A DNA stretch of 64,000 bases from Candidatus Paceibacterota bacterium (GTDB taxonomy: Bacteria; Actinomycetota; Actinomycetes; Nanopelagicales; Nanopelagicaceae). Position numbers and translations under genes: made by a program. The stretch spans positions 186,001 through 250,000 of the forward strand of contig DATKUL010000001.1 in NCBI GenBank assembly GCA_035530615.1, in the 5' to 3' direction. The notes beneath the pieces are model-generated. The model worked only from the letters and a program-made list of their open reading frames with translations. It did no database searches and was not told the origin of the DNA. Positions within the stretch are counted from its first letter, which is position 1. The number at the start of each line of letters is the position of its first letter. Positions 34,883 to 49,266 of the stretch are shown piece by piece.

Positions 34883-35663
34883 AACGCGCAATCTCAACTT
34901 CTCTTATAACTCTGGAGTTCCGATTCTCCATGACGTAAATATCTCGATCACCAAGGGCCAGAATGTTGGCCTTGTCGGAGAGTCAGGTTCGGGAAAGAGC
35001 ACCATTCTTCGACTACTTCTTGGAATTTATCGTCCAACGCAGGGTCAAATACTCTTCGCGGGAGAGGAACTCGCCCTACGCAACAAGGAGCAAGCTCGCA
35101 GATTCAGAAGCCAGGTGCAAGTTGTCTTTCAAGATCCGTACTCTTCACTGGATCCCCGCCAACGGGTTGACCAATTAATCGCTGAACCACTGCGCTCTCT
35201 TGGCATTGCAAGAGATGCGAATGTCGGTGGAAGTCGAGCCCATATTCGAGAGTGGATAGAGAATGAAGTTGTGGAGGCTCTAAAGTCAGTTGGACTGCCA
35301 GCTGATTCTGCGCGGCGCTACCCCGATGAATTCTCCGGTGGACAACGCCAGAGAATCGCCATCGCCCGTGCGATTGTCTGCAAACCGCAAGTTCTTCTCG
35401 CAGACGAACCAGTGAGCGCCTTGGACGTTTCGACTCGAGTAAGGGTTATCGAACTCATTGCCGAACTCGGAGCGACAAAAAATCTCACGATTGTCATGGT
35501 CTCCCACGACCTTGCTGTCGTAGCCGCACTTTGCAAGCAGAGCATCGTTCTTGAAAAGGGATTCGTCGTAGAGCAAGGCTCGACGGCCTCAGTTCTTGGA
35601 GCACCCAGCCACGCCTACACGCAAAGATTGATCGAGAGTTTGCCTCGCCTACCAGTTAATTAA
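34863..35663 (+). CDS. ABC transporter ATP-binding protein, DppF type (second locus)
   Basis: About 266 residues from the ATG at 34863, which follows GGAGGAAGCG; a longer frame starts 30 bases upstream without such a site. Walker A is GESGSGKS (residues 39-46), the signature FSGGQRQR, and Walker B is followed by ADEPVSALD. Like its partner it lacks the long C-terminal tail. Its 3' end overlaps the convergent DUF885 gene by four bases. Confidence 0.9.
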   Translation: MTSPILETRNLNFSYNSGVPILHDVNISITKGQNVGLVGESGSGKSTILRLLLGIYRPTQGQILFAGEELALRNKEQARRFRSQVQVVFQDPYSSLDPRQRVDQLIAEPLRSLGIARDANVGGSRAHIREWIENEVVEALKSVGLPADSARRYPDEFSGGQRQRIAIARAIVCKPQVLLADEPVSALDVSTRVRVIELIAELGATKNLTIVMVSHDLAVVAALCKQSIVLEKGFVVEQGSTASVLGAPSHAYTQRLIESLPRLPVN

Positions 35664-37315
35664 TTCCCGTCCCACCGTGCCATCTCAACTTCAAATGGAT
35701 CCAGTCCCATCGGCCCAAGTTTTAATGCAAACGAATGAAATCTTTTAAGCGAGAAGCCGACTCCCAAACGTTTCTTTGCATCCTCTCGAACCCGCATCCA
35801 CACTCGTTCGCCGACTTTATAAGAGATGGCCTGCCCTGGCCAGCCGAGGTACCGATCCACTTCACTGCGTGAATGGGCATCATCAAGAAGCGCCCGGTTC
35901 ATTAAGACTTCGTAGGCAGATTCTGCGTTCCACACCTCACCGTTGTAATCGGTGTATCCAAGGTGCATCCCAATATCGACAACAACACGTGCCGCACGCA
36001 GAGCCTGCCCGGAGAGATAACCCATTTCTAAACCTGGATCTTCAAATGCGCCGAGTTCGTCCATGAGACGTTCTGCGTAAAGCGCCCAACCTTCACCATA
36101 ACCACTTGTCCATGCCTTGGTCCGTTGGAATCTGCTCAACCTATCTTGTTCGATAATCACCGTTGCTTCTTGCAAATGATGACCCGGAACCGACTCGTGA
36201 TACCAAGTAGTTGCGAGATGCCACCAACTAAATTCACTCTTACCCAGGGTGGGAAACCATGTGGTACCAGGACGAGAAAGATCTTCACTGGGTGACTGAT
36301 AATAAGGAGCAGAGGCACTTCCCTCTGGCGCAAGTCGTGCATCGCAGAACTTGACCCGCTCGTCAATGTCGAAATGAACTCCATCCATCTGCGCGACCGC
36401 TGCCTGCGTAAAACTCTTCAATTTTTCCAACAGTGCTTCAGTACCCTGAATAAGGTACTTGGGATCAGCATCCAAGTGATCTGCGACCTCGCGTAAGGTT
36501 TTAGCCCCCGGCTTGATTTTCGCAGCGACCCGCCACATCCGTTCATTGATCTGTGCTAAATCTTGCAACCCCCACTCATAAGTAGCCCGTAAATCGAGTT
36601 TTGCCCCTGTGAAATGACGGGCCCACGCAGAATATCTCGCTTCACCAACGGCATCCGCCGGATTAGATAATGGTAGGTACTCACGCAATAACCATTCGCT
36701 AGTTTGCAGAGCCGACTCATCGGCTGCTGCACCTGCCACGTGTAATTCTGGGTACTTTTCAGTTGGATCTATCCCCCTGGCGATCCCCGAATATGCGCCT
36801 TCTGCGAAAGTCTTCAACTGCTGCGCCACTGCCAACGTCTGTCTTCGCGACGTCGTCTTGCCAACTTTGGCCAACTCGTCAATGCACGATAGCCATGATT
36901 CATGCGCGCCAGCAACCGCATTAAGGCGAGCCGTAATGTTCTTCACATCCTCATCAGTATCGTGCGACATCACCTCAAAGACTTGGCGAATATCTGCCAC
37001 TGGCGATGAAATTACGTTCCATGAGATTTGTTCTTCACGAGAATCATGCAATGCCAATCTCGATTTCAATCGCTCTTCCATAACCGCCTTCGCGATTCGA
37101 TCAATCTCATCCTGTGGCTCCAGCATCGCCAATTCTTCCAGCGTCCTTCGACTCAAATCAGCGGACTTCACGGTACCAGCCAATGAAAAATCATCGAGTT
37201 TATGGTCAAAACCACTGATGCCTAGAAAGGTCGCACTTATCGGATTCAAGATGGCCAGGTAGGCGATGTACTTATCGCTCAGTTCAAATATTGGTGATCG
37301 GGAGGAAGAATCCAT
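35660..37315 (-). CDS. DUF885 family protein (M32-like metallopeptidase candidate)
   Basis: A 551-residue soluble protein of the DUF885 family. The zinc-binding-like motif is TTWYHESVPGHHLQEA near residue 385 (HExxxGHH pattern). GYGEGWALYAERLMDELG provides the second-half glutamate, and YKVG and MRVREDAKKRLG follow near the C-terminus. DUF885 proteins resemble zinc carboxypeptidases, though few have been tested. It is convergent with the second peptide transporter. This is the last ordinary gene before the accessory region downstream of rpoC. Confidence 0.85.
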   Translation of the reverse strand: MDSSSRSPIFELSDKYIAYLAILNPISATFLGISGFDHKLDDFSLAGTVKSADLSRRTLEELAMLEPQDEIDRIAKAVMEERLKSRLALHDSREEQISWNVISSPVADIRQVFEVMSHDTDEDVKNITARLNAVAGAHESWLSCIDELAKVGKTTSRRQTLAVAQQLKTFAEGAYSGIARGIDPTEKYPELHVAGAAADESALQTSEWLLREYLPLSNPADAVGEARYSAWARHFTGAKLDLRATYEWGLQDLAQINERMWRVAAKIKPGAKTLREVADHLDADPKYLIQGTEALLEKLKSFTQAAVAQMDGVHFDIDERVKFCDARLAPEGSASAPYYQSPSEDLSRPGTTWFPTLGKSEFSWWHLATTWYHESVPGHHLQEATVIIEQDRLSRFQRTKAWTSGYGEGWALYAERLMDELGAFEDPGLEMGYLSGQALRAARVVVDIGMHLGYTDYNGEVWNAESAYEVLMNRALLDDAHSRSEVDRYLGWPGQAISYKVGERVWMRVREDAKKRLGVGFSLKRFHSFALKLGPMGLDPFEVEMARWDGN

Positions 37316-37425: not shown

Positions 37426-37749
37426 TCACGTTGGAGTTACCCCGAATTCTAGATCGTTAAGTACATAACTATCCTTGCTTGAAGCCACCACGATGCTGAT
37501 CGGCGGCACGAAATCGGCATTACAGGGGTTGTGGTTATTTCCACCGATCCAGTTCTGCTCGGTGCGAATCACGCCAGCCACGTGCTGGTTGGTCGCCGAT
37601 GCCATCAGGATTCGATGGATCTCGACGATGTTCTCTACGGAAATGGTTTCTGCAACGGTGGCGTGGTCGATCGCCAACCCCATCGAATCAATGTTGGCAA
37701 GAATCTCCCGAGTGTTGGGGCCCGCCTTGCAGTACTGATGTTCCTTCAA
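37426..37749 (-). pseudogene. Truncated Fic-family gene, catalytic motif deleted
   Basis: The frame encodes about 107 residues closely resembling residues 111-184 of the intact Fic protein at 38976-40178, joined directly to residues from about 250 onward. The missing piece includes the catalytic HPFHDGNGR motif. In the intact gene both borders of the missing piece read FVPP, so the deletion probably occurred between two short direct repeats. The N-terminal part is also absent and the end runs out of homology. It is therefore a remnant of a second copy of that Fic gene. Confidence 0.85.
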
Positions 37750-38572: not shown

Positions 38573-38650
38573 CTGCGATTCAAATGGGGCGAAGTCGTAT
38601 TCATCATAAGCTGCGTAAACCGCCGCCTTTGCCTCCCCCATTGGTTGAAG
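38573..38650 (-). pseudogene. rpoC 3'-end remnant R3
   Basis: On the minus strand this stretch encodes [21 protein letters not shown], which matches the C-terminal region of the RpoC encoded at 45424-49266 with a single substitution in that run. Homology fades on both sides: the last residues, stop codon and terminator of rpoC are missing, and the upstream part shifts frame. It has the same orientation as rpoC. It is the farthest of three such copies and the only one without a terminator. Confidence 0.88.
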
Positions 38651-38659
38651 TAACAAGAT

Positions 38660-39032
38660 CATTCGAAGAAATCAAGTTCTCGGACTTATTCTCGGAATTC
38701 GCTGAAATAGACAAGGTTGGACTTCCAGGAGTTCAAGAGAAAGTCTCGGCTAAAAGAATCTCGTTCGCCGCATCTCGGGCGGGATTCCAATCCTTTCTAC
38801 CCAAGATGGGGAATGGAAAATCTCACCGGCCTACGATCTCCCATCAACTCTCCCATACGGGGATACTTCTCTCGCGCTCACATTGGGAGGGAAAAAAACA
38901 GGCCACTCAAGAAGATCATTAGTCGAATTTGGCATGACAGTTGGGCTAAGTGAGAAACTCGCGATAATTAGTTCTTTAGCCGTATCGTCTCGGAAGTATC
39001 CCAGATTCAAGATCGGTGAGAAGGCTCAATAG
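38660..39032 (+). pseudogene. HipA-family kinase remnant (internally deleted)
   Basis: Read by hand in two frames. The first part has IDKVGLPGVQEKVSAKRISF, matching the N-terminal lobe of HipA toxins (the LPGVQ-K motif). From about 38790 a second frame reads STQDGEWKISPAYDLPST and then LPYGDTSLALTLGGKK, matching the HipA C-terminal part after the catalytic loop, and stops at 39030-39032. The kinase core in between, including the catalytic HxxN/D region, is absent. The 3' end overlaps the convergent Fic gene. No HipB partner is seen. Confidence 0.7.
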
Positions 39033-40178
39033 ACCCCGAACTTCCCACGTTCTATTTCTCTGACCTTGCGATTCACGAATCAGAACACCCGCAAGTTCGA
39101 GTTGCGCCATAGCTTCACTGATCGCAGCTTTAGTGCGCCCCACCGCCGCCACAGCAACTGCCACAGTAATCATCGGGTGAGCTGGAAGCGCCTCAATAAT
39201 CTTCCAAGCAGCAGCATCGGCGCGCGGATTTGCCGCCGCACCTAACTCCGCTCTCCATTCTTTCTGCAGCCTCTCAACTTCGCCTAGGTACGCACTCGCC
39301 AGATTGGCTGACTGTGCCGCCGCCGAAGCAAACGTAGTCAACCAGTCGGTGAATTCACCTTCTCTAAAATTCGAGAGGCCACGTATATAACTATCTCTAT
39401 TCGAAGCCAGAACAATGCTGATGGGCGGCACAAACTGGGGTGTCATTCCGCGGCGACGCAGTACAACATGAATGAGGGCACGGCCCGTGCGGCCATTGCC
39501 ATCGTGGAATGGATGGATCGTTTCGAACTGCGCATGCACCAAACCGGCCTGCACGATTGGCGGGAGATGATCTTCGTTTATGGCTTCACAAAGATCAGCG
39601 AGGAGACGGGGGACTTCCTCCGGTGGTGGAGGAACGAAATCGGCATCACAAGGATTGTAGTTATTTCCACCGATCCAGTTCTGTTCGGTCCGAATGAGAC
39701 CAGCGACATGTTGGTTAGACGCCGCGGCCATCAGGATTCGATGAATTTCGATGATGTTCTCTACAGAAATGGTTTCTGCAACGGTGGCGTGGTCGATCGC
39801 CAGTTCCATCGCATCAATGTTGGCCAGGATCTCACGAGTGTTCGGGCCAGTCTTGCCACCTGTTTCGAGTTTGGCCTCCGCTCGTGCTAGATCGCGTACA
39901 TCAACCTGCATTCCCTCAACTTTGGAAGAGGCAACCGATTCGGAGCGCAAAAGCAATCGCGCCAACGGGGCGAGTGCTGGAAGGGCCCGCGCATTAAGTT
40001 GGTGAATAGCGGTCTCAGCATCGGAGACTGCCCCGGCAAGTTCGCCCGCCAGTGGTTCGGCGAAGTTGGTGAGGTCATCTGGAATGAAGGCTTCATAATG
40101 GCAGGCTCGGCGATACCGAGGTGGGGCGTAGTGGGCTGGGTTGTATTCCCACGTTCGACGAACGAATCTGCCTCTCAT
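38976..40178 (-). CDS. Fic-family AMPylase-type protein with C-terminal winged helix (Fic-A)
   Basis: A 400-residue class II Fic protein. The inhibitory helix motif SSKVEG (residues 84-89, S/TxxxEG) precedes the Fic core, and the catalytic motif HPFHDGNGRTGR (residues 222-233) is complete. The C-terminal part (about residues 320-390) looks like a winged-helix DNA-binding domain with GRTKAAISEAMAQLELAGVL. Such proteins transfer AMP to target proteins and are kept inactive by the inhibitory glutamate. The start has AGGGGG upstream. The adjacent operator-like 13-mers suggest self-regulation through the winged helix. It sits between remnants R2 and R3. Confidence 0.9.
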   Translation of the reverse strand: MRGRFVRRTWEYNPAHYAPPRYRRACHYEAFIPDDLTNFAEPLAGELAGAVSDAETAIHQLNARALPALAPLARLLLRSESVASSKVEGMQVDVRDLARAEAKLETGGKTGPNTREILANIDAMELAIDHATVAETISVENIIEIHRILMAAASNQHVAGLIRTEQNWIGGNNYNPCDADFVPPPPEEVPRLLADLCEAINEDHLPPIVQAGLVHAQFETIHPFHDGNGRTGRALIHVVLRRRGMTPQFVPPISIVLASNRDSYIRGLSNFREGEFTDWLTTFASAAAQSANLASAYLGEVERLQKEWRAELGAAANPRADAAAWKIIEALPAHPMITVAVAVAAVGRTKAAISEAMAQLELAGVLIRESQGQRNRTWEVRGLLSLLTDLESGILPRRYG

Positions 40179-40251: not shown

Positions 40252-40386
40252 ATATTATCCTATGCTTAACTCCACTTTCAGTTCAGGGTAAAGCACCGAT
40301 CTCTGAAGCGAAACTTTCTGATTTTCTCCAGTTGTCCGAGTGAGAGCAAAATGGGAAAGGCGACTTAAGTCAGTCCCCATCAATCA

Positions 40387-40423
40387 AAACAGCCCCTCCG
40401 CTCCGTCAAGAGCAAAGGGGCCG
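40387..40423 (-). terminator. Copied rpoC terminator of remnant R2
   Basis: On the minus strand GGCCCCTTTGCTC is followed by a short loop and GAGCGGAGGGGC, then TGTTTTGA. The stem and the linker before it match the native rpoC terminator region at 45365-45398 with only a few changes. Confidence 0.85.
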
Positions 40424-40452
40424 TTAAGACTCGCCGTGAGATTAGTTCTCCG

Positions 40453-40515
40453 TTAGCGAGGTACTTCGAATTCATCCAGACGGACCGCCTCGCCTGTATC
40501 TTGCCATTCAAATTG
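40453..40515 (-). pseudogene. rpoC 3'-end remnant R2
   Basis: On the minus strand this encodes [19 protein letters not shown] and a stop, against [20 protein letters not shown] in the functional RpoC. The following linker and terminator are also conserved, so the copied block runs from about 40386 to 40515. Upstream the homology stops abruptly. It is in the same orientation as rpoC and about 5 kb from its functional end. Confidence 0.9.
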
Positions 40516-40596: not shown

Positions 40597-41670
40597 TCAA
40601 CGGAGCAAGAACAGAATCTCATGCACAAGCAAGTAGGCCACAACCACGCCAAGACTTGAAAACCAGCACACCGTGACCATTTTGAGGCGCGTTCGAGATC
40701 GGATATACAGGCCCATCACGCAAAGAATTGGCAAACTCCCAAGATCCATATAGCCGTTTTTCAATAGTGAAATTGCCCCTACTGCCCAGAGTGGTGAAAT
40801 AAACGCAAGAATAGGAAGAAACATCGAATCCACAATGATTCGATTCAGGGTTCGCCTATGCCGCTCAGGGGTCTCCACGTCAAGAATCTTGGCTTTTTCC
40901 TGCATCTCTGAGGCGATTTCTTTAACTCTATGTGGGTCGAGAGCATTTTTGCGAAGGCCCTCAAGCCAACTCTTGAGTTCAGGACCTCGGACTCCGTAAA
41001 CGAAATCTGGACTCTTTCTATAGAACGTTGGAAGATCAGATGAGGAATCTTCTGCCGACCAAAGCACGCAGACAGCATAAATCGGCACATAATCTCGAAC
41101 ACTTTCGAACTTAGATTGCACATCCTCTCGATTTTTCTTTACTTGAGTGACGGCCCAATCCAGTTGGTTAGACATGTAGTTCCGTTTTCCATACTTCATG
41201 GGCCAGCGACCACTGCTCCACTTAGTTTCGAAGATGATAATTCCACTCGGACCAACGAGTATGTGGTCGATATCTCCCGAATCGGGAAAGCGCATGCCAT
41301 TTATCAAATGCCACTCTCTGCCTTTGAACTCCCTCAAAATATCCGCGGTGAGACTTTCGCCTTGTATTCCCATGATGCTTGGCGCGATACCACTCCATAA
41401 GATTACGAAAACTACGACAAGCCAAAAACTTGTTGCCCCTACTGCTCCAATGAACGCCCAACGCGCCGCTCCATGAACGAGCAACGAAAGTGGAAGAGAA
41501 CTCAAGAAAGGGAAAAGGAATAATCCAACAAGGGGTAATTTGTAGCGCCGCAAGAAGGATATAGTCCGAGTCCAAACATCATTTCTTGCTTTCCGCGCGA
41601 CGCGTTCCCCGCTCCCTAATTCCCGCGCAGATTTGTTCGCCCTGCGCGACGCCACTTTGTCATTCATCAT
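40597..41670 (-). CDS. NERD-domain membrane protein
   Basis: A 357-residue protein with two hydrophobic segments near residues 45-65 and 72-95, a central NERD domain and two C-terminal hydrophobic segments. The NERD (nuclease-related) core shows GESLTADIL, then GDIDHILVGPSGIIIFETKW, giving Asp133/Asp135, Glu148 and Lys150 in a PD-(D/E)xK-like arrangement. Some NERD proteins occur in defence loci. The location between R2 and R1 next to an SDH-type protease suggests a defence or stress role, which is not established. Confidence 0.85.
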   Translation of the reverse strand: MMNDKVASRRANKSARELGSGERVARKARNDVWTRTISFLRRYKLPLVGLFLFPFLSSLPLSLLVHGAARWAFIGAVGATSFWLVVVFVILWSGIAPSIMGIQGESLTADILREFKGREWHLINGMRFPDSGDIDHILVGPSGIIIFETKWSSGRWPMKYGKRNYMSNQLDWAVTQVKKNREDVQSKFESVRDYVPIYAVCVLWSAEDSSSDLPTFYRKSPDFVYGVRGPELKSWLEGLRKNALDPHRVKEIASEMQEKAKILDVETPERHRRTLNRIIVDSMFLPILAFISPLWAVGAISLLKNGYMDLGSLPILCVMGLYIRSRTRLKMVTVCWFSSLGVVVAYLLVHEILFLLR

Positions 41671-42133
41671 TTCGGAAGATTAACAGTGGGCGCGAAAAGA
41701 AATGACATCACGAAAGGGGACCGGGTGATCAAAATCCACCGCATAACAGCCCTGGGGTGCTACTTTTCGTCAACCATCCCCCATCAGTGCAGGTAACAAC
41801 GCGTCTACGGAGAGGGTCGCCAGCTCATATGAATGAACTTGAACTTTCACGAGCCATGGGCACTTGCACGCTCGGCGTGACGATAATTGATTCGTGGAAA
41901 ACGATATCCGCTTACAACTCCAAAAGGATATCCTTGTCACCAGGTCAGATTCGCCCTATCCTCAACTCAAACGAAGTATTTCGTTTGAAATAGTGCGAGA
42001 CAGGAATGCGTATGCGACACCTCGTCGGTCAAGAAAACGACATTATTCAGATATGCGGAGTCGCCTGTGGATCAATTGGGCGGATTAGAAACATGAATTT
42101 TCGTTACAAGAAATTCAGGATGGCCACCCCGAA
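41671..42133. other. Gene-poor stretch upstream of the SDH-type protease gene
   Basis: This 463-base stretch separates the divergent NERD and protease genes and should contain both promoters. I see no convincing long gene. A 43-codon frame from the ATG at 42006 ends at 42137, overlapping the TTG start of the protease gene as TTGA. It could be a small coupled leader gene but has no recognisable homology. No rpoC-tail copy is visible here. Confidence 0.4.
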
Positions 42134-43114
42134 TTGAATACGAGAGAGCCGCAGGAAGGGAAGTCTGTTGGGGAAGAGGTGTCGGCGCAGCCGGGTATTG
42201 TTGCTGGTCTCGAAAATAGTGGAAGGTCGCCAATGGGTCATCACCCGGATAGCACTAATCATGTTGTAGAACGAGAACTGACATCTCGGCTTGTATCACT
42301 TGAGAAGTTGTTACGCGCAGATGTGCTTGCCTATTCAGGACCGATAGATCCCATGGCGCATGAAGTCATAAAAGCTGCAATCGAAAGTTTTGATAAAAGG
42401 CGAAAAAAAATTGTTGTTCTCCTAGAAACATTTGGTGGCTACATAGAATTCGCAGAACGAATCGCCAACACTTTGCATCATCATTACAAAACGGTTGACT
42501 TTATTGTGACGACTTATGCAATGTCGGCTGGCACCGTCTTGGTAATGTCTGGAGACAATCTGTTTATGGATTACTCGGCCACACTTGGACCCATTGATCC
42601 ACAAATTCCTCGTCAGGGGGCGGCGGGATTTGTCCCGGCCTTGGGTTACTTAGAACAATTTGAACGACTAGTCCAAAAATCGCGAGAAGAGGACCTCACT
42701 CGGATTGAGCAGATGTACTTTCTTCAGAACTTCGACCCAGGGGAATTGTACTCTTATGAACAGGCTCGAGATCTTTCGATTGCCCTGTTGGAAGAATGGC
42801 TTGTTAAATACAAATTCAAGAATTGGCGAGTTACAGAGACTCGGAATCTCCCAGTTACAATATCCATGAAACGAGAAAGAGCAGCACAAATAGCCGAGCG
42901 GTTGAATGAAACAAAACGTTGGCATTCGCACGCGCGTGGCATTACAATGAAAGTTGCAAATCGCGAACTAAAATTGAGAATCGATGACTTAGAGGAAATA
43001 CCGGAAGTCTGGGCTGGGTTAATGAGTTACCAAAACCTGTTGCGAGAATATCGCACTAGACTGGGCCACCGTACGTTAGTTATCAATTGGAGGGATGGTT
43101 ATCATGGTCACTAA
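42134..43114 (+). CDS. Serine dehydrogenase proteinase (SDH)/ClpP-crotonase-fold protease-like protein
   Basis: Up to 326 residues from a TTG; an ATG at 42233 (MGHHPD, with GGAAGG upstream) is a serious alternative and would remove a poorly conserved N-terminus. The fold is indicated by LLETFGGYIEFAERIA, by YAMSAGTVLVMSGD with candidate nucleophile Ser131, and by SATLGPIDPQIP. These match the SDH proteinase family, ClpP/SppA-like proteins. No membrane helix is present. A small gene follows with its start inside this gene's 3' end. Related proteins appear in mobile and defence contexts, but this one's target is unknown. Confidence 0.8.
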   Translation: MNTREPQEGKSVGEEVSAQPGIVAGLENSGRSPMGHHPDSTNHVVERELTSRLVSLEKLLRADVLAYSGPIDPMAHEVIKAAIESFDKRRKKIVVLLETFGGYIEFAERIANTLHHHYKTVDFIVTTYAMSAGTVLVMSGDNLFMDYSATLGPIDPQIPRQGAAGFVPALGYLEQFERLVQKSREEDLTRIEQMYFLQNFDPGELYSYEQARDLSIALLEEWLVKYKFKNWRVTETRNLPVTISMKRERAAQIAERLNETKRWHSHARGITMKVANRELKLRIDDLEEIPEVWAGLMSYQNLLREYRTRLGHRTLVINWRDGYHGH

Positions 43115-43304
43115 AACACGAGTTAAGGAGATTGAGGAGATCATCGATGAAATTGTCTCTAAATCCGACAATGATTCAGTTCAAAGTATAAGGGAAGCAT
43201 TGTCTGAATTGAAAGATCAGGGCGTAACACGGCCCTTCTATAATCTTGAATCTCCATATGAGCGGATGACACATTGTTGCAATTCAAACGATCAAGATTA
43301 TTAG
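43104..43304 (+). CDS. Small partner protein of the SDH-type protease (66 residues)
   Basis: The ATG at 43104 has GGAGGG nine bases upstream and overlaps the protease gene by 11 bases, which is strong evidence for translation. An ATG at 43095 is an alternative. The protein is acidic and helical in its first half (VKEIEEIIDEIVSKSDND) and ends in a Cys-Cys containing tail. I recognise no family. Tight coupling suggests a regulator, adaptor or antitoxin-like partner of the protease. Confidence 0.6.
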   Translation: MVTKTRVKEIEEIIDEIVSKSDNDSVQSIREALSELKDQGVTRPFYNLESPYERMTHCCNSNDQDY

Positions 43305-43559: not shown

Positions 43560-43738
43560 ATTTACTGGCGGTGCTCGAATTCATCGAGACGTACCGCCTC
43601 ACCTGAACCTTGCGATTCAAATGGGGTGAAGTCATACTCGCCGAGGCTGCGTGAACAGCGGCCTTGGCTTTTTCTGTTGGCTCGACCCGGATGTTGCGGT
43701 ATCTGGCAAGTCCAGTACCGACCGGAATGAGTTTGCGC
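43560..43738 (-). pseudogene. rpoC 3'-end remnant R1
   Basis: About 180 bases homologous to the last 180 bases of rpoC in the same orientation. The protein frame [19 protein letters not shown] matches RpoC ([19 protein letters not shown]) and continues [12 protein letters not shown] one-base deletion then shifts the frame, after which [21 protein letters not shown] is read in the next frame. Aligning by eye I count 27 differences over about 160 bases. Homology to rpoC ends sharply near 43738. It is the longest and closest copy. Confidence 0.92.
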
Positions 43739-43910: not shown

Positions 43911-45326
43911 ATGGAAGAGAATCCGAATCCTCGGGACCCCACAGGTGTTCCTTATAAGCCTTTCCCCACTTTTAGTGAATGGCGGAACGTTGATGTAAGT
44001 CTCTCCACCTCGGACGCCTATTTCAATCGGATTGCCAAAATCAAATCGGAGGCATCCTCATCACAATTGGAAGACGCAGTCCGAATAGCAACAAAGTGGG
44101 CTGCCGTAGACACAGGTGCGATAGAAGGGCTATACGAGGTTGATAGGGGCTTTACCTATTCTGTAGCGAGAAGTGCAACTGCCTGGTCAAACATCCACAA
44201 AGAGAAGAATGAATATGCCGCCAGATCAATCGCTGACGCGATGAAAGCGTACGAATGGGTAATTGATGCAGCCACAAACAATTCCTTGATTTCTGAGAAG
44301 TGGATAAAGGAGCTACACGCGGAACTATGTGCATCTCAAGATACCTACACGGTAATTACAGATCGTGGAGTTGAACAGCGGGAATTACCTAAGGGCCAAT
44401 ACAAGACACTACCTAACAATCCCATTAACCACGCATCAAACGAGGTGCACTGCTATGCGGCGCCCATAGATACTCAACCGGAAATGACTAGATTCATCAA
44501 TGAATTGAGATCTGTTGAGTTCAATTCGTCACATCCAATCTTGCAAGCTTCATACACACACTACGCTTTTGTAAGTGTCCACCCATTCCCTGATGGCAAT
44601 GGTCGAGTCGCACGCACTCTCGCTTCCGTATTCTTGTATCGGAATCCTGGAATTCCTCTAGTAGTCTTCGCGAATCAAAAGTCCGAATACTTCGATTCCT
44701 TGGAACGCGCCGACAAAGGCGAAACCATCGATTTTGTGCGCTTCATTCTTGAAAGAGCCTTAGACACAATCGGAATGGTCGAAGCACAGATGCAAAGTGC
44801 GGCCCTTCCTGACGTCGTAGAACAGCAAAACGCGATGAGGGCCATACTGAGAGGTAGAGGTGGATTGCAACACACTCTTGTCGACGATATTGCAAATAGA
44901 TTACTAGATCTCTTTAGACAATCCTTAGTTGATCAGGGGAGCGAAAATCCACTTACCCCACCACTCTCAAATCAATTCTTTGGTACAAACGAAGTTCCAA
45001 GGACAATACCGACTGATTACAGAATGGTGATAAGTAATCCAAAATCTATAGGTTTACAGATACGAAGCGACTCGCCCGCCGCAGGTTCACTTAACCATGT
45101 CTATGGCGTAGCCGTTGCCAGACAAGGAATTGAAACCGCTGACTTCATTCTTGTCTGTGAGGAACGTGTCGTGCTAGAGATTTTCTTGCGTGAGATATAT
45201 CCAGAAATCAAAGATTCGCTCTCATTCAAAATGATGGCTCTAGCGCGGGCAGAATTCCGAATCATGGTGCAGGAAGTCCAAAGACAAGCCGCAGTATCGC
45301 TCGAAAAAAATGGCTATGTCGGTTAG
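43911..45326 (+). CDS. Fic-family AMPylase-type protein, second family (Fic-B)
   Basis: A 471-residue Fic protein unrelated in detail to Fic-A. The inhibitory motif TGAIEG (residues 68-73) lies at the N-terminal side and the catalytic motif HPFPDGNGRVAR (residues 224-235) is intact, so it is a class II Fic with self-inhibition. The C-terminal 150 residues are unassigned and may recognise a target or signal. GTGGAGG precedes the ATG. It is convergent with rpoC and ends 97 bases from the rpoC stop, with the rpoC terminator between them. It is the cargo between functional rpoC and remnant R1. Confidence 0.9.
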   Translation: MEENPNPRDPTGVPYKPFPTFSEWRNVDVSLSTSDAYFNRIAKIKSEASSSQLEDAVRIATKWAAVDTGAIEGLYEVDRGFTYSVARSATAWSNIHKEKNEYAARSIADAMKAYEWVIDAATNNSLISEKWIKELHAELCASQDTYTVITDRGVEQRELPKGQYKTLPNNPINHASNEVHCYAAPIDTQPEMTRFINELRSVEFNSSHPILQASYTHYAFVSVHPFPDGNGRVARTLASVFLYRNPGIPLVVFANQKSEYFDSLERADKGETIDFVRFILERALDTIGMVEAQMQSAALPDVVEQQNAMRAILRGRGGLQHTLVDDIANRLLDLFRQSLVDQGSENPLTPPLSNQFFGTNEVPRTIPTDYRMVISNPKSIGLQIRSDSPAAGSLNHVYGVAVARQGIETADFILVCEERVVLEIFLREIYPEIKDSLSFKMMALARAEFRIMVQEVQRQAAVSLEKNGYVG

Positions 45327-45423: not shown

Positions 45424-48400
45424 TTACTTGCGGGGTGCTTCGAATTCATCAAGTCGTACTGCTTCCCCTGAACCTTGTGATTCAAAGGGAGTGAAGTCGT
45501 ACTCGTCGTAGGCAGCGTAGACAGCGGCCTTTGCCTCCTCAGTTGGCTCAACCCGAATGTTGCGATATCTGGCAAGGCCAGTACCGGCTGGGATGAGCTT
45601 GCCGATGATGACGTTCTCTTTGAGTCCGAGCAATGGGTCGCTCTTCTCGGAGAGTGCTGCGTCGGTGAGGACGCGAGTTGTCTCCTGGAAGGAAGCGGCC
45701 GATAGCCATGACTCAGTAGCAAGAGATGCCTTGGTGATACCCATAAGTTCTGGACGACCTGAGGCTGCTTTTCCGCCAGTTGAAACAATGCGGCGGTTTT
45801 CAGTCTCAAAGCGACCACGCTCTACGAGTTCACCTGGAAGTAGATCAGTGTCGCCAGCTTCAAGAACAGTGATGCGCTTGAGCATCTGGCGAACAATAAC
45901 TTCAATGTGCTTATCGTGAATGCCTACGCCCTGTGAGCGGTAGACCTCTTGGATCTCATTTACCAAGTGAACTTGAGTTGCACGAGGTCCGAGAATACGA
46001 AGCACCTGCTTAGGATCAATTGCGCCGACGACCATCTTCTGGCCAACCTCAACGCGCTGTCCATCTTCTACCAGCAACTTCTGACGACGGATGATTGGGT
46101 ATTCGACTGCTTCACTGCCATCTTCTGGAGTGACAACAATCTTCTTGCCCTTTGCATCTTCGCGGAAGGAGACAACACCAGCTGCTTCAGCAATTGGAGC
46201 GACGCCCTTAGGAGTACGTGCTTCGAAGAGTTCAACGACACGTGGAAGACCGTGTGTGATGTCATCTCCTGCCACACCGCCGGTGTGGAAGGTACGCATT
46301 GTTAGCTGCGTTCCTGGCTCGCCGATTGATTGTGCAGCGATGATTCCGACTGCTTCGCCGACATCAACGATCTTGCCCGCGGCCAACGAACGGCCGTAAC
46401 AAAGTGAACACTGTCCAACCTTGCTATCGCAGGTAAGAACTGAACGTACCTTCACTTCGGAAACTCCCGCAGCGATAATCTTGTCAATGATGAGATCGCC
46501 CATGTCGCGTCCGGCTTCAGCGATGACAACGCCATCAACAACAATCGGATCGGCCAATGAGCGACCGTAGACAGAAGTTTCGACATCGTCGTGCTTGACC
46601 AATACGCCTTGTGAGTTCTTAATCGCGATTGGAAGAACTAGCCCGCGATCAGTACCGCAATCTTCTTCACGGATGATGACATCCTGTGCAACGTCGCAGA
46701 GACGACGGGTCAAGTAACCCGAGTCAGCAGTACGAAGAGCAGTATCAGCAAGACCCTTTCGGGCCCCGTGCGTAGAGATGAAGTACTCAAGAACAGACAA
46801 GCCTTCACGGAAGTTGGACTTGATCGGACGAGGAATAATTTCGCCCTTTGGGTTAGCTACAAGTCCACGCATGCCCGCGATCTGACGGATCTGCATCATG
46901 TTTCCACGCGCACCAGAGTCGACCATCATCCACACTGGGTTATTACGCGAGCTCTTGAAGTTCTCCTCCATGACCTCACCAACTTCCTTAGTGGCTTGGG
47001 TCCAGATCTCGATCAGTTCCTGACGACGCTCGTCATCGGTGATCAGACCCTTCTCGTACTGAATTTCTACCTTCTCGGCTCTGGTTTCAGATTCCTTAAG
47101 AATCGCAGCCTTACCAACCGGAGTTACAACATCTTCAATACCGATAGTTGCACCGGCACGAGATGCCCAATGGAAACCTAGTTCCTTCAACGCATCTAGC
47201 GTCTGAGCAACGGTGACCTTTGGATAGAACTCAGCAAGCTGTTCAACGATCTTTCCAAGTTGGGCCTTCTTAACGTCGTAATCCACGAATGGATACTCAG
47301 GAGGAAGTGCCTCATTGAATAGGGCGCGACCGATTGTGGTTGAACGGGTGATCGACTCGGTGCCGTTTAGTCCATTGGAAGCATCAAGACGGACCTTGAT
47401 TTTTGCTTGCAATGAAACTGTTCCTTGATCAAAAGCCATGACGGCTTCCGCGATCGAACCGAATGCGCGGCCTTCGCCGACTTCTCCATCACGGGCACTG
47501 GTCAAGTAGTACAGACCAAGAACCATGTCCTGGGTTGGAGTTGTGATTGGACGACCGTTAGCAGGTGACAAGATGTTGTTGGAAGACAACATCAACACAC
47601 GAGCTTCGGCCTGTGCTTCAGCAGAGAGTGGAAGGTGAACAGCCATCTGGTCACCGTCGAAGTCTGCGTTAAACGCGGTACAGACCAACGGGTGAATCTG
47701 AATTGCTTTACCTTCAACGAGCTGTGGCTCGAATGCCTGGATACCCAAGCGGTGCAGCGTAGGTGCGCGGTTTAGAAGTACTGGATGCTCGGCGATAACT
47801 TCTTCGAGAACATCCCACACAACTGGACGTGCGCGCTCGACCATGCGCTTTGCAGACTTAATGTTCTGCGCGTGGTTTAGATCCACCAGACGCTTCATTA
47901 CGAATGGCTTGAAGAGTTCGAGAGCCATCTGCTTTGGCAGACCGCACTGGTGCAACTTCAACTGTGGACCAACAACGATGACCGAACGGCCAGAGTAGTC
48001 AACGCGCTTTCCGAGCAAGTTCTGACGGAAGCGACCTTGCTTACCTTTGAGCATGTCGGACAACGACTTGAGTGCCCGGTTACCAGGACCAGTAACTGGG
48101 CGACCGCGACGGCCGTTGTCGAAGAGTGCATCGACTGCTTCTTGAAGCATGCGCTTCTCGTTGTTGACGATGATCTCTGGAGCACCAAGATCAGCAAGAC
48201 GCTTCAAACGGTTGTTACGGTTGATGACGCGGCGATAAAGATCGTTGAGATCTGAAGTCGCGAAGCGGCCACCATCGAGTTGAACCATTGGGCGTAGATC
48301 TGGTGGAATAACCGGAACAACATCCAGCACCATCGATGCTGGGTGGTTGCTCGTGGTCAAGAATGCGTTAACAACCTTGAGACGTTTGATAGCGCGGGTC

Positions 48401-49266
48401 TTCTTCTGACCCTTGCCGTTCTCGCTGAGGTCGTTGAGGATCTTGTATTCGGCTTCGAGGTCGAAGGTCTCTAGGCGACGCTTGATCGCAGCAGCTCCCA
48501 TGTCACCCTTGAAGTACATGCCGTAACGATCCTTCATTTCGCGATAGAGAGTCTCATCGCCTTCAAGATCTTGAACCTTGAGGTTCTTGAAACGAGCCCA
48601 TACCTGCTCTATGCGATCGAGTTCGCGTTGTGAGCGATCACGAATCTGCTTGAGTTCGCGCTCTGCGCTCTCGCGAACCTTGCGGCGTACATCAGCCTTG
48701 GCCTCTTCTGCTTCCAATTCGGAGAGATCGGCTTCTAGCTTCTTTGTACGTGCATCGAGTTCGTTATCGCGCTTGGTTTCAATCTTGCGGATGTCGTTTG
48801 CCAACTTCTTTTCAAGTTGTGGCATATCTTCTTCGCGAGCTTCCTTGTCCACCTCAGTGATCATGTATGCAGCGAAGTAAATAACCTTCTCAAGATCCTT
48901 TGGAGCTAGATCGAGAAGGTAGCCAAGGCGGCTGGGAACACCCTTGAAGTACCAGATGTGAGTAACAGGTGCAGCAAGTTCGATGTGACCCATGCGCTCA
49001 CGACGAACCTTTGCGCGAGTAACTTCGACACCGCAACGCTCGCAGATGATTCCCTTGAAGCGAACGCGCTTGTACTTACCGCAGTAACACTCCCAGTCGC
49101 GAGTAGGTCCGAAGATCTTCTCGTCGAACAGACCGTCCTTCTCAGGCTTGAGGGTTCTGTAGTTGATGGTCTCTGGCTTCTTTACCTCTCCAAAGGACCA
49201 CTCACGAATGTTGTTGGCCGAGGCCAGACCAATTCGCAGTTCATCAAAAAAGTTGACGTCTAACAT
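45424..49266 (-). CDS. rpoC: DNA-directed RNA polymerase beta' subunit
   Basis: A 1280-residue beta' subunit of actinobacterial type. The N-terminal zinc site has [20 protein letters not shown]. The catalytic [12 protein letters not shown] motif is intact, the trigger-loop region is complete, and the second zinc site has [13 protein letters not shown]. The C-terminus is [14 protein letters not shown]. It lies 17 bases after rpoB. Its last 180 bases are duplicated in part three times downstream, yet the functional gene is full length, so each addition rebuilt or left intact its 3' end. Confidence 0.98.

Follow-up and report, generated by a model that had tools for sequence, protein, structure and literature searches.

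A ClpP-fold protease with a 66-residue partner at the rexAB position of E. coli prophages: a candidate phage-exclusion module

A block of the window, which is the whole 64,000-nucleotide stretch of DNA that was analysed, carries a gene for a NERD-domain protein, a gene for a serine-protease-like protein and a very short gene at the end of the latter, and raises the question of which of these genes belong together and what they do. A preliminary description had proposed that all three form one defence module. The three genes are present where it had placed them, and the block sits, as it had also said, among toxin-antitoxin genes.

The block is bounded by two displaced copies of the rpoC 3′ end, R1 (40384 to 40512, minus strand, 83% identical, with the terminator) and R2 (43562 to 43736, minus strand, 83% identical), and a blastn search with a word size of 4 detected no hidden rpoC tail between the NERD and protease genes. 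The NERD gene (40597 to 41670, minus strand, 357 aa) matches PF08378 with 49.9 bits against a cut-off of 22.1; the membrane segments of its product were judged by eye from the sequence. The co-occurrence check that the preliminary description had suggested does not bear out NERD as a third member. In particular, none of 40 protease-carrying genomes (40 of the 80 genome loci were used, and draft contigs limit the linkage that can be seen) has a NERD gene within 10 kb of the protease; NERD genes were found in 22 of the 40, mostly on other contigs, and in the two genomes where both lie on the same contig they are about 84 kb and 1.66 Mb apart. Moreover, tblastn with two NERD proteins gave no match in 169 protease loci, a search in which two queries could miss distant NERDs. 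The NERD gene of G080, a congener, is 33% identical and lies beside an Mrr-type endonuclease gene in that genome's own rpoC-tail slot, and the G080 genome contains no protease match anywhere. NERD, unlinked in the 40 genomes, unmatched by tblastn and protease-free in the congener, was rejected as a component; these comparisons identify its gene as a neighbour in a separate cassette.

The longest frame of the protease begins at a TTG at 42134 and would encode 326 aa up to its end at 43114. Its relatives are mostly about 285 to 315 aa long and a GGAAGG lies six bases 5′ of the ATG at 42233, so that 42233 to 43114 (plus strand, 293 aa) is the likely gene. The protein belongs to PF01972 (SDH_protease), with 61.5 bits against a gathering cut-off of 31.3, and also matches PF00574 (25.9 bits, cut-off 20.2); with 71.9 bits against a curated cut-off of 250, it is not a member of the NCBIfam equivalog NF047768 (Clp_like_SDH). 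Its AlphaFold model (mean pLDDT 90.7) aligns with ClpP over 175 residues (VIA-align, Z 14.9, rmsd 3.2), and structure comparison also matches it to 1510-N and SppA. An alignment of the window protease with 74 others (A5, out of 97 protease sequences prepared) shows that Ser131, in the motif SAGT (S131-A-G-T), is invariant in all 75, as are G101, G102, D155, K227 and H266. The predicted structure is a ClpP-like fold with a putative nucleophile serine in SAGT. The histidine of the ClpP triad seems to be absent at its usual spacing; the putative general base may be K227 or H266, both invariant in the alignment. The fold and the SAGT serine motif are common to SDH-type ClpP-like proteases (PF01972), SppA, 1510-N/NfeD and ClpP. 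Unlike these proteins, the protease has an invariant W..H and a YKF region towards its C-terminus, together with an obligatory-looking small partner.

Two further observations concern the protease gene. Its frame is broken in several carriers (G632, G639, G645 and G362, and Rhizobium L079 and L082), with an internal stop in 3 of 40 genomes and frame breaks in the two Rhizobium loci; these may be assembly errors, or a costly gene may have decayed into pseudogenes. A second protease type of about 395 to 413 aa (L084, L087 and L227, from Leptospira and others) also has a small ORF downstream, and some of these ORFs end in a YxLS-like tail.

The partner gene (43104 to 43304, plus strand, 66 aa) overlaps the protease gene by 11 nt, and its ATG at 43104 has a GGAGGG about 10 bases upstream. 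The model of its product (pLDDT 75) has helices at residues 4 to 20 and 23 to 38, followed by an extended tail that carries a conserved G...YxLxSP motif; across alignments, the core consists of N-P-x-x-D, a helix ending in L-x-x-x-G, and then Y-x-L and S/P-rich residues. Sub-cut-off matches to ribosomal protein L17 (Pfam 21.1 against 27 bits, NCBIfam 17.8 against 70) were treated as chance, and this identity was rejected.

A short ORF lies directly 3′ of the protease in 158 of the 161 loci with room for one, a count that alone proves little. The candidates came from 169 loci and the window, of which 9 had too little sequence past the protease stop and 3 had no candidate; for statistics, the 151 loci with at least 150 bits were thinned to 112, a single locus from each group at 80% identity; there was room in 106 of these, and a candidate in 104. 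A partner profile was built from 72 genome loci, taking the candidate ORF nearest the protease stop, with a few wrong-frame picks (e.g. L090) included in the training set. In 5-fold cross-validation, held-out partners were recovered at 67 of the 72 genome loci (E ≤ 0.01), and the partner of G362, outside the training set, was found at E = 7e-14. Tight coupling and a conserved small frame, the latter having been named beforehand as a point on which the proposal could fail, are thereby upheld. The same profile gave a single hit at E ≤ 0.01 among 9,043 other ORFs of these loci; this hit, in L082, is a real partner behind a frame-broken protease, so that there is no real false positive. Against a profile from which it was left out, the window partner still reaches E = 1e-8, and its frame is therefore more than chance.

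Moreover, of the 77 partners that the profile supports, 63 begin between -20 and +25 nt relative to the protease stop, with a median of +3. Across 74 loci the protease and partner trees are correlated (Mantel r 0.52, 0 of 2,000 permutations), a co-evolution which shows that both genes travelled together; physical contact is not implied. In prophage variants, dN of the small gene is below dS in nine of the nine pairs printed (0.037-0.060 versus 0.17-0.61), pairs that are drawn from two variant groups and are not independent; this speaks for selection on the small frame. Viral partners are divergent: cross-validation recovers 14 of 29, the genome-type profile hits 3 of 30 viral loci, and comparison of the viral-type and genome-type profiles gives a probability of only 75. 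Pfam annotation of 140 and 130 neighbour ORFs, called greedily as longest ORFs in the 77 non-redundant loci and cut at 350 aa, gave 73 and 106 families; no third conserved partner is visible in the 25 that were listed, beyond which singletons, NERD among them, may lie. Overall, sequence evidence identifies the protease and its partner as a genuine module of two genes that are conserved together.

A scan of 84,980 species yielded 360 confirmed stretches with protease relatives from many phyla; the best 80 of these 360 were analysed as genome relatives, together with 79 of 121 confirmed viral stretches. Relatives occur on plasmids of Rhizobium, Methylosinus, E. coli and Leptospira, and also in other actinobacteria. 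Near the host they are sparse: the protease is found in 1 of 201 genomes of its order, and in its phylum 44 of 396 genomes match at all and 4, its own included, exceed 120 bits. A search of 50,697 records of isolated phages turned up nothing of the pair beyond one distant match at 28.9%. It is a horizontally mobile, self-contained module. Many of the 77 non-redundant genome loci have varied non-phage neighbours, and these neighbourhoods contain mostly ordinary genes with no strong defence signature; PADLOC matches among the neighbours are mad2 (4 of 130), PD-T4-6-type kinases (2 of 140) and restriction-modification proteins, given as raw counts with no claim of enrichment. In four Rhizobiaceae loci (L079, L080, L082 and L123), the pair is preceded by an operon of multiubiquitin, ThiF and DUF6527 genes, which is possibly a ubiquitin-like conjugation system beside the protease. 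Found in four of 169 loci, all Rhizobiaceae, the operon is a local association and was rejected as a component of the system.

The window copy of the pair lies outside any prophage, and the RexAB-type position applies to its E. coli relatives. A plasmid with lambda-type genes encodes a LexA-like CI repressor, then the pair, and then ral, cIII and kil; two chromosomal prophages have the same order, and in one of these an additional short gene separates cI from the protease. The order cI, protease, small gene is found in all three records examined. These were compared by blastn with a prophage carrying cro-cI-rexA-rexB-N. In the plasmid copy, homology to this rexAB prophage stops at the cI stop and restarts at the last base of rexB. 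The match at the end of cI is present in two of the three copies, and in all three the homology restarts within the final one or two bases of rexB, which is 4, 10 and 10 nt past the small gene; in L248, the weakest copy, the stretch shared at the point of resumption is no more than 44 nt. Within the slot, there is no similarity between the pair and rexAB at the DNA level. At three E. coli loci, the pair thus occupies the RexAB-type position, flanked by cI on one side and lambdoid early genes on the other. Further, among 30 ORFs upstream of the pair in non-redundant viral loci, 12 encode Peptidase_S24 (CI-like) and 9 encode HTH_3 domains. Of 5,426 complete E. coli genomes, 847 share part of a 1.2-kb query, mostly its flank only, and 17 contain 80% or more of this query.

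According to PMC7067206 and PMC8585504, the cI-n interval is a mosaic region that hosts accessory genes, rexAB and bstA among them. The exact rexAB place of the pair in some E. coli prophages therefore makes it a candidate anti-phage system. Like the pair, RexAB of phage lambda is encoded by two genes that follow cI immediately, and the slot is shared; in contrast, the pair has no DNA similarity to rexAB there and encodes a ClpP-fold protease, whereas RexB reportedly forms an ion channel for which RexA is the sensor (PMC8585504). BstA of prophage BTP1, an abortive-infection phage defence, is similar by its position downstream of the prophage repressor, but is described as one protein accompanied by a DNA element for self-immunity (PMC8585504), compared with a protease and a peptide here. 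By analogy, the role of the pair may be RexAB- or BstA-like, and membership in neither is claimed.

The E. coli pair matches two PHROG families, phrog_11747 and phrog_28875 (2.1e-99 and 2.1e-30), both listed there with unknown function; the window protease matches phrog_11747 (2.6e-45), and the window partner matches no PHROG family. In PADLOC-DB 2023, no family matches the protease or the NERD protein at E ≤ 1, and the small protein has weak partial matches only (0.003-0.03). The Lit protease of prophage e14 reportedly excludes phage by cutting a host protein; it is said to be a metalloprotease that is activated by a phage peptide and that has no partner gene of this kind. A reference title in PMC12894663 concerns EF-Tu cleavage by an exclusion system. 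No published description of this protease with its partner was found in the open-access literature; the terms protease, Clp and SDH are all absent from the main text of PMC13092281.

The place of the pair at the rexAB slot of prophages makes a role in defence plausible, and there is about an even chance that the protease and its partner are a phage-exclusion (abortive-infection) system. In this candidate mechanism, the partner, with its predicted short hairpin of helices and extended motif-bearing tail, would dock on the protease through that tail; the ATPases of ClpP dock by short loops, which offers an analogy only. The docked partner would control the protease, most likely by restraining it until infection releases it, and the freed protease would cut host or phage proteins, causing the infection to fail. 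A broader reading is held with slightly less than even confidence: the pair may represent an unnamed phage-exclusion system of wide occurrence, whose cytoplasmic ClpP-fold protease has as its gate a tiny peptide-like protein encoded beside it, not an AAA+ ATPase, and whose cassette is exchanged among the lambdoid rexAB slot, plasmids and defence arrays on chromosomes. Should the pair protect lysogens, it would add a protease-based system to the rexAB slot, which is among the oldest known exclusion loci, and phrog_11747 and phrog_28875 would gain a function; a ClpP-like protease run by a partner of 50 to 75 residues instead of an ATPase would also be an unusual control mechanism. The function is testable in E. 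coli, since natural E. coli prophages carry the pair at the rexAB slot.

Other readings account for part of these data. The protease could be a toxin and the small protein its antitoxin, together stabilizing mobile elements by addiction with no phage-specific trigger. The two-gene operon with a very short second gene, the presence of the pair on plasmids and prophages, and the broken protease frames, as expected of a toxin, would agree with this; however, it is the operon layout only that fits a type II toxin-antitoxin system, the broken frames may be assembly errors, and exact exchange in the rexAB slot is more typical of lysogen-protection genes, leaving addiction unlikely. The same slot bears on the proposal that the pair regulates lysogeny by acting on the adjacent CI-like repressor, or on an antirepressor, in prophages. 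The Peptidase_S24 matches in 12 of the 30 upstream viral ORFs speak for such a regulator, but the lambda genes at this slot are exclusion genes and many of the 77 genome loci have varied non-phage neighbours, making regulation of lysogeny quite improbable.

General proteolysis or quality control by the protease with a small adaptor draws on the ClpP fold and the small conserved partner, and on the fact that other SDH-type and S49 proteases are housekeeping enzymes. This reading is nevertheless improbable given the patchy distribution within the order and phylum of the host, where stable vertical inheritance is largely not seen. Finally, a three-part defence module of NERD, protease and peptide can point to all three genes sharing one block between two copies of the rpoC tail, but the lack of linkage in 40 genomes and 169 loci, and the NERD gene of the congener that occurs without the protease, make it extremely improbable.

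The surroundings of the block are themselves of interest. Between 38574 and 45551 in the window, displaced rpoC tails separate toxin-antitoxin and defence genes into an array of cassettes, anchored at the 3′ end of the host gene rpoC (45424 to 49266, minus strand, identified from its translated sequence). In addition to R1 and R2, a third displaced rpoC 3′ end lies at 38574 to 38644 (minus strand, 79% identical), and the neighbouring cassettes encode Fic proteins at 43911 to 45326 (plus strand, PF02661) and at 38976 to 40178 (minus strand, PF02661 and PF13784), the latter with a similar gene in the rpoC island of G043. Such arrays, noted in the window and at loci L035, L036 and L037, occur in 4 of 21 genomes of the genus examined (the host's own, G039, G043 and G080); the extra rpoC-tail matches in G043 are short stretches at the terminator. 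As cargo, G080 has NERD with Mrr and also HipA accompanied by an HTH gene; G039 has HipA, and G043 has MazE-like/PIN and Fic. For G019, reading by eye places apparent rpsL and rpsG genes directly after rpoC.

No recombinase or integrase was seen in the block, and the open-access literature held nothing useful on rpoC as an integration site or on ubiquitin operons. Three long displaced tails (at about 43736 in the window, 5369 in L035 and 4239 in L036) have a common start in rpoC, about 180 to 190 nt before its stop, which hints at site-specific insertion or recombination. The array is bordered by a gene for a DUF885 protein (35660 to 37315 in the window), and both G039 and G203 carry similar genes of 551 aa close to rpoC. 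Further, a 229-nt repeat (37502 to 37730 and 39628 to 39856, 86% identical) places a Fic fragment beside the intact Fic gene, perhaps as the remnant of a second Fic cassette.
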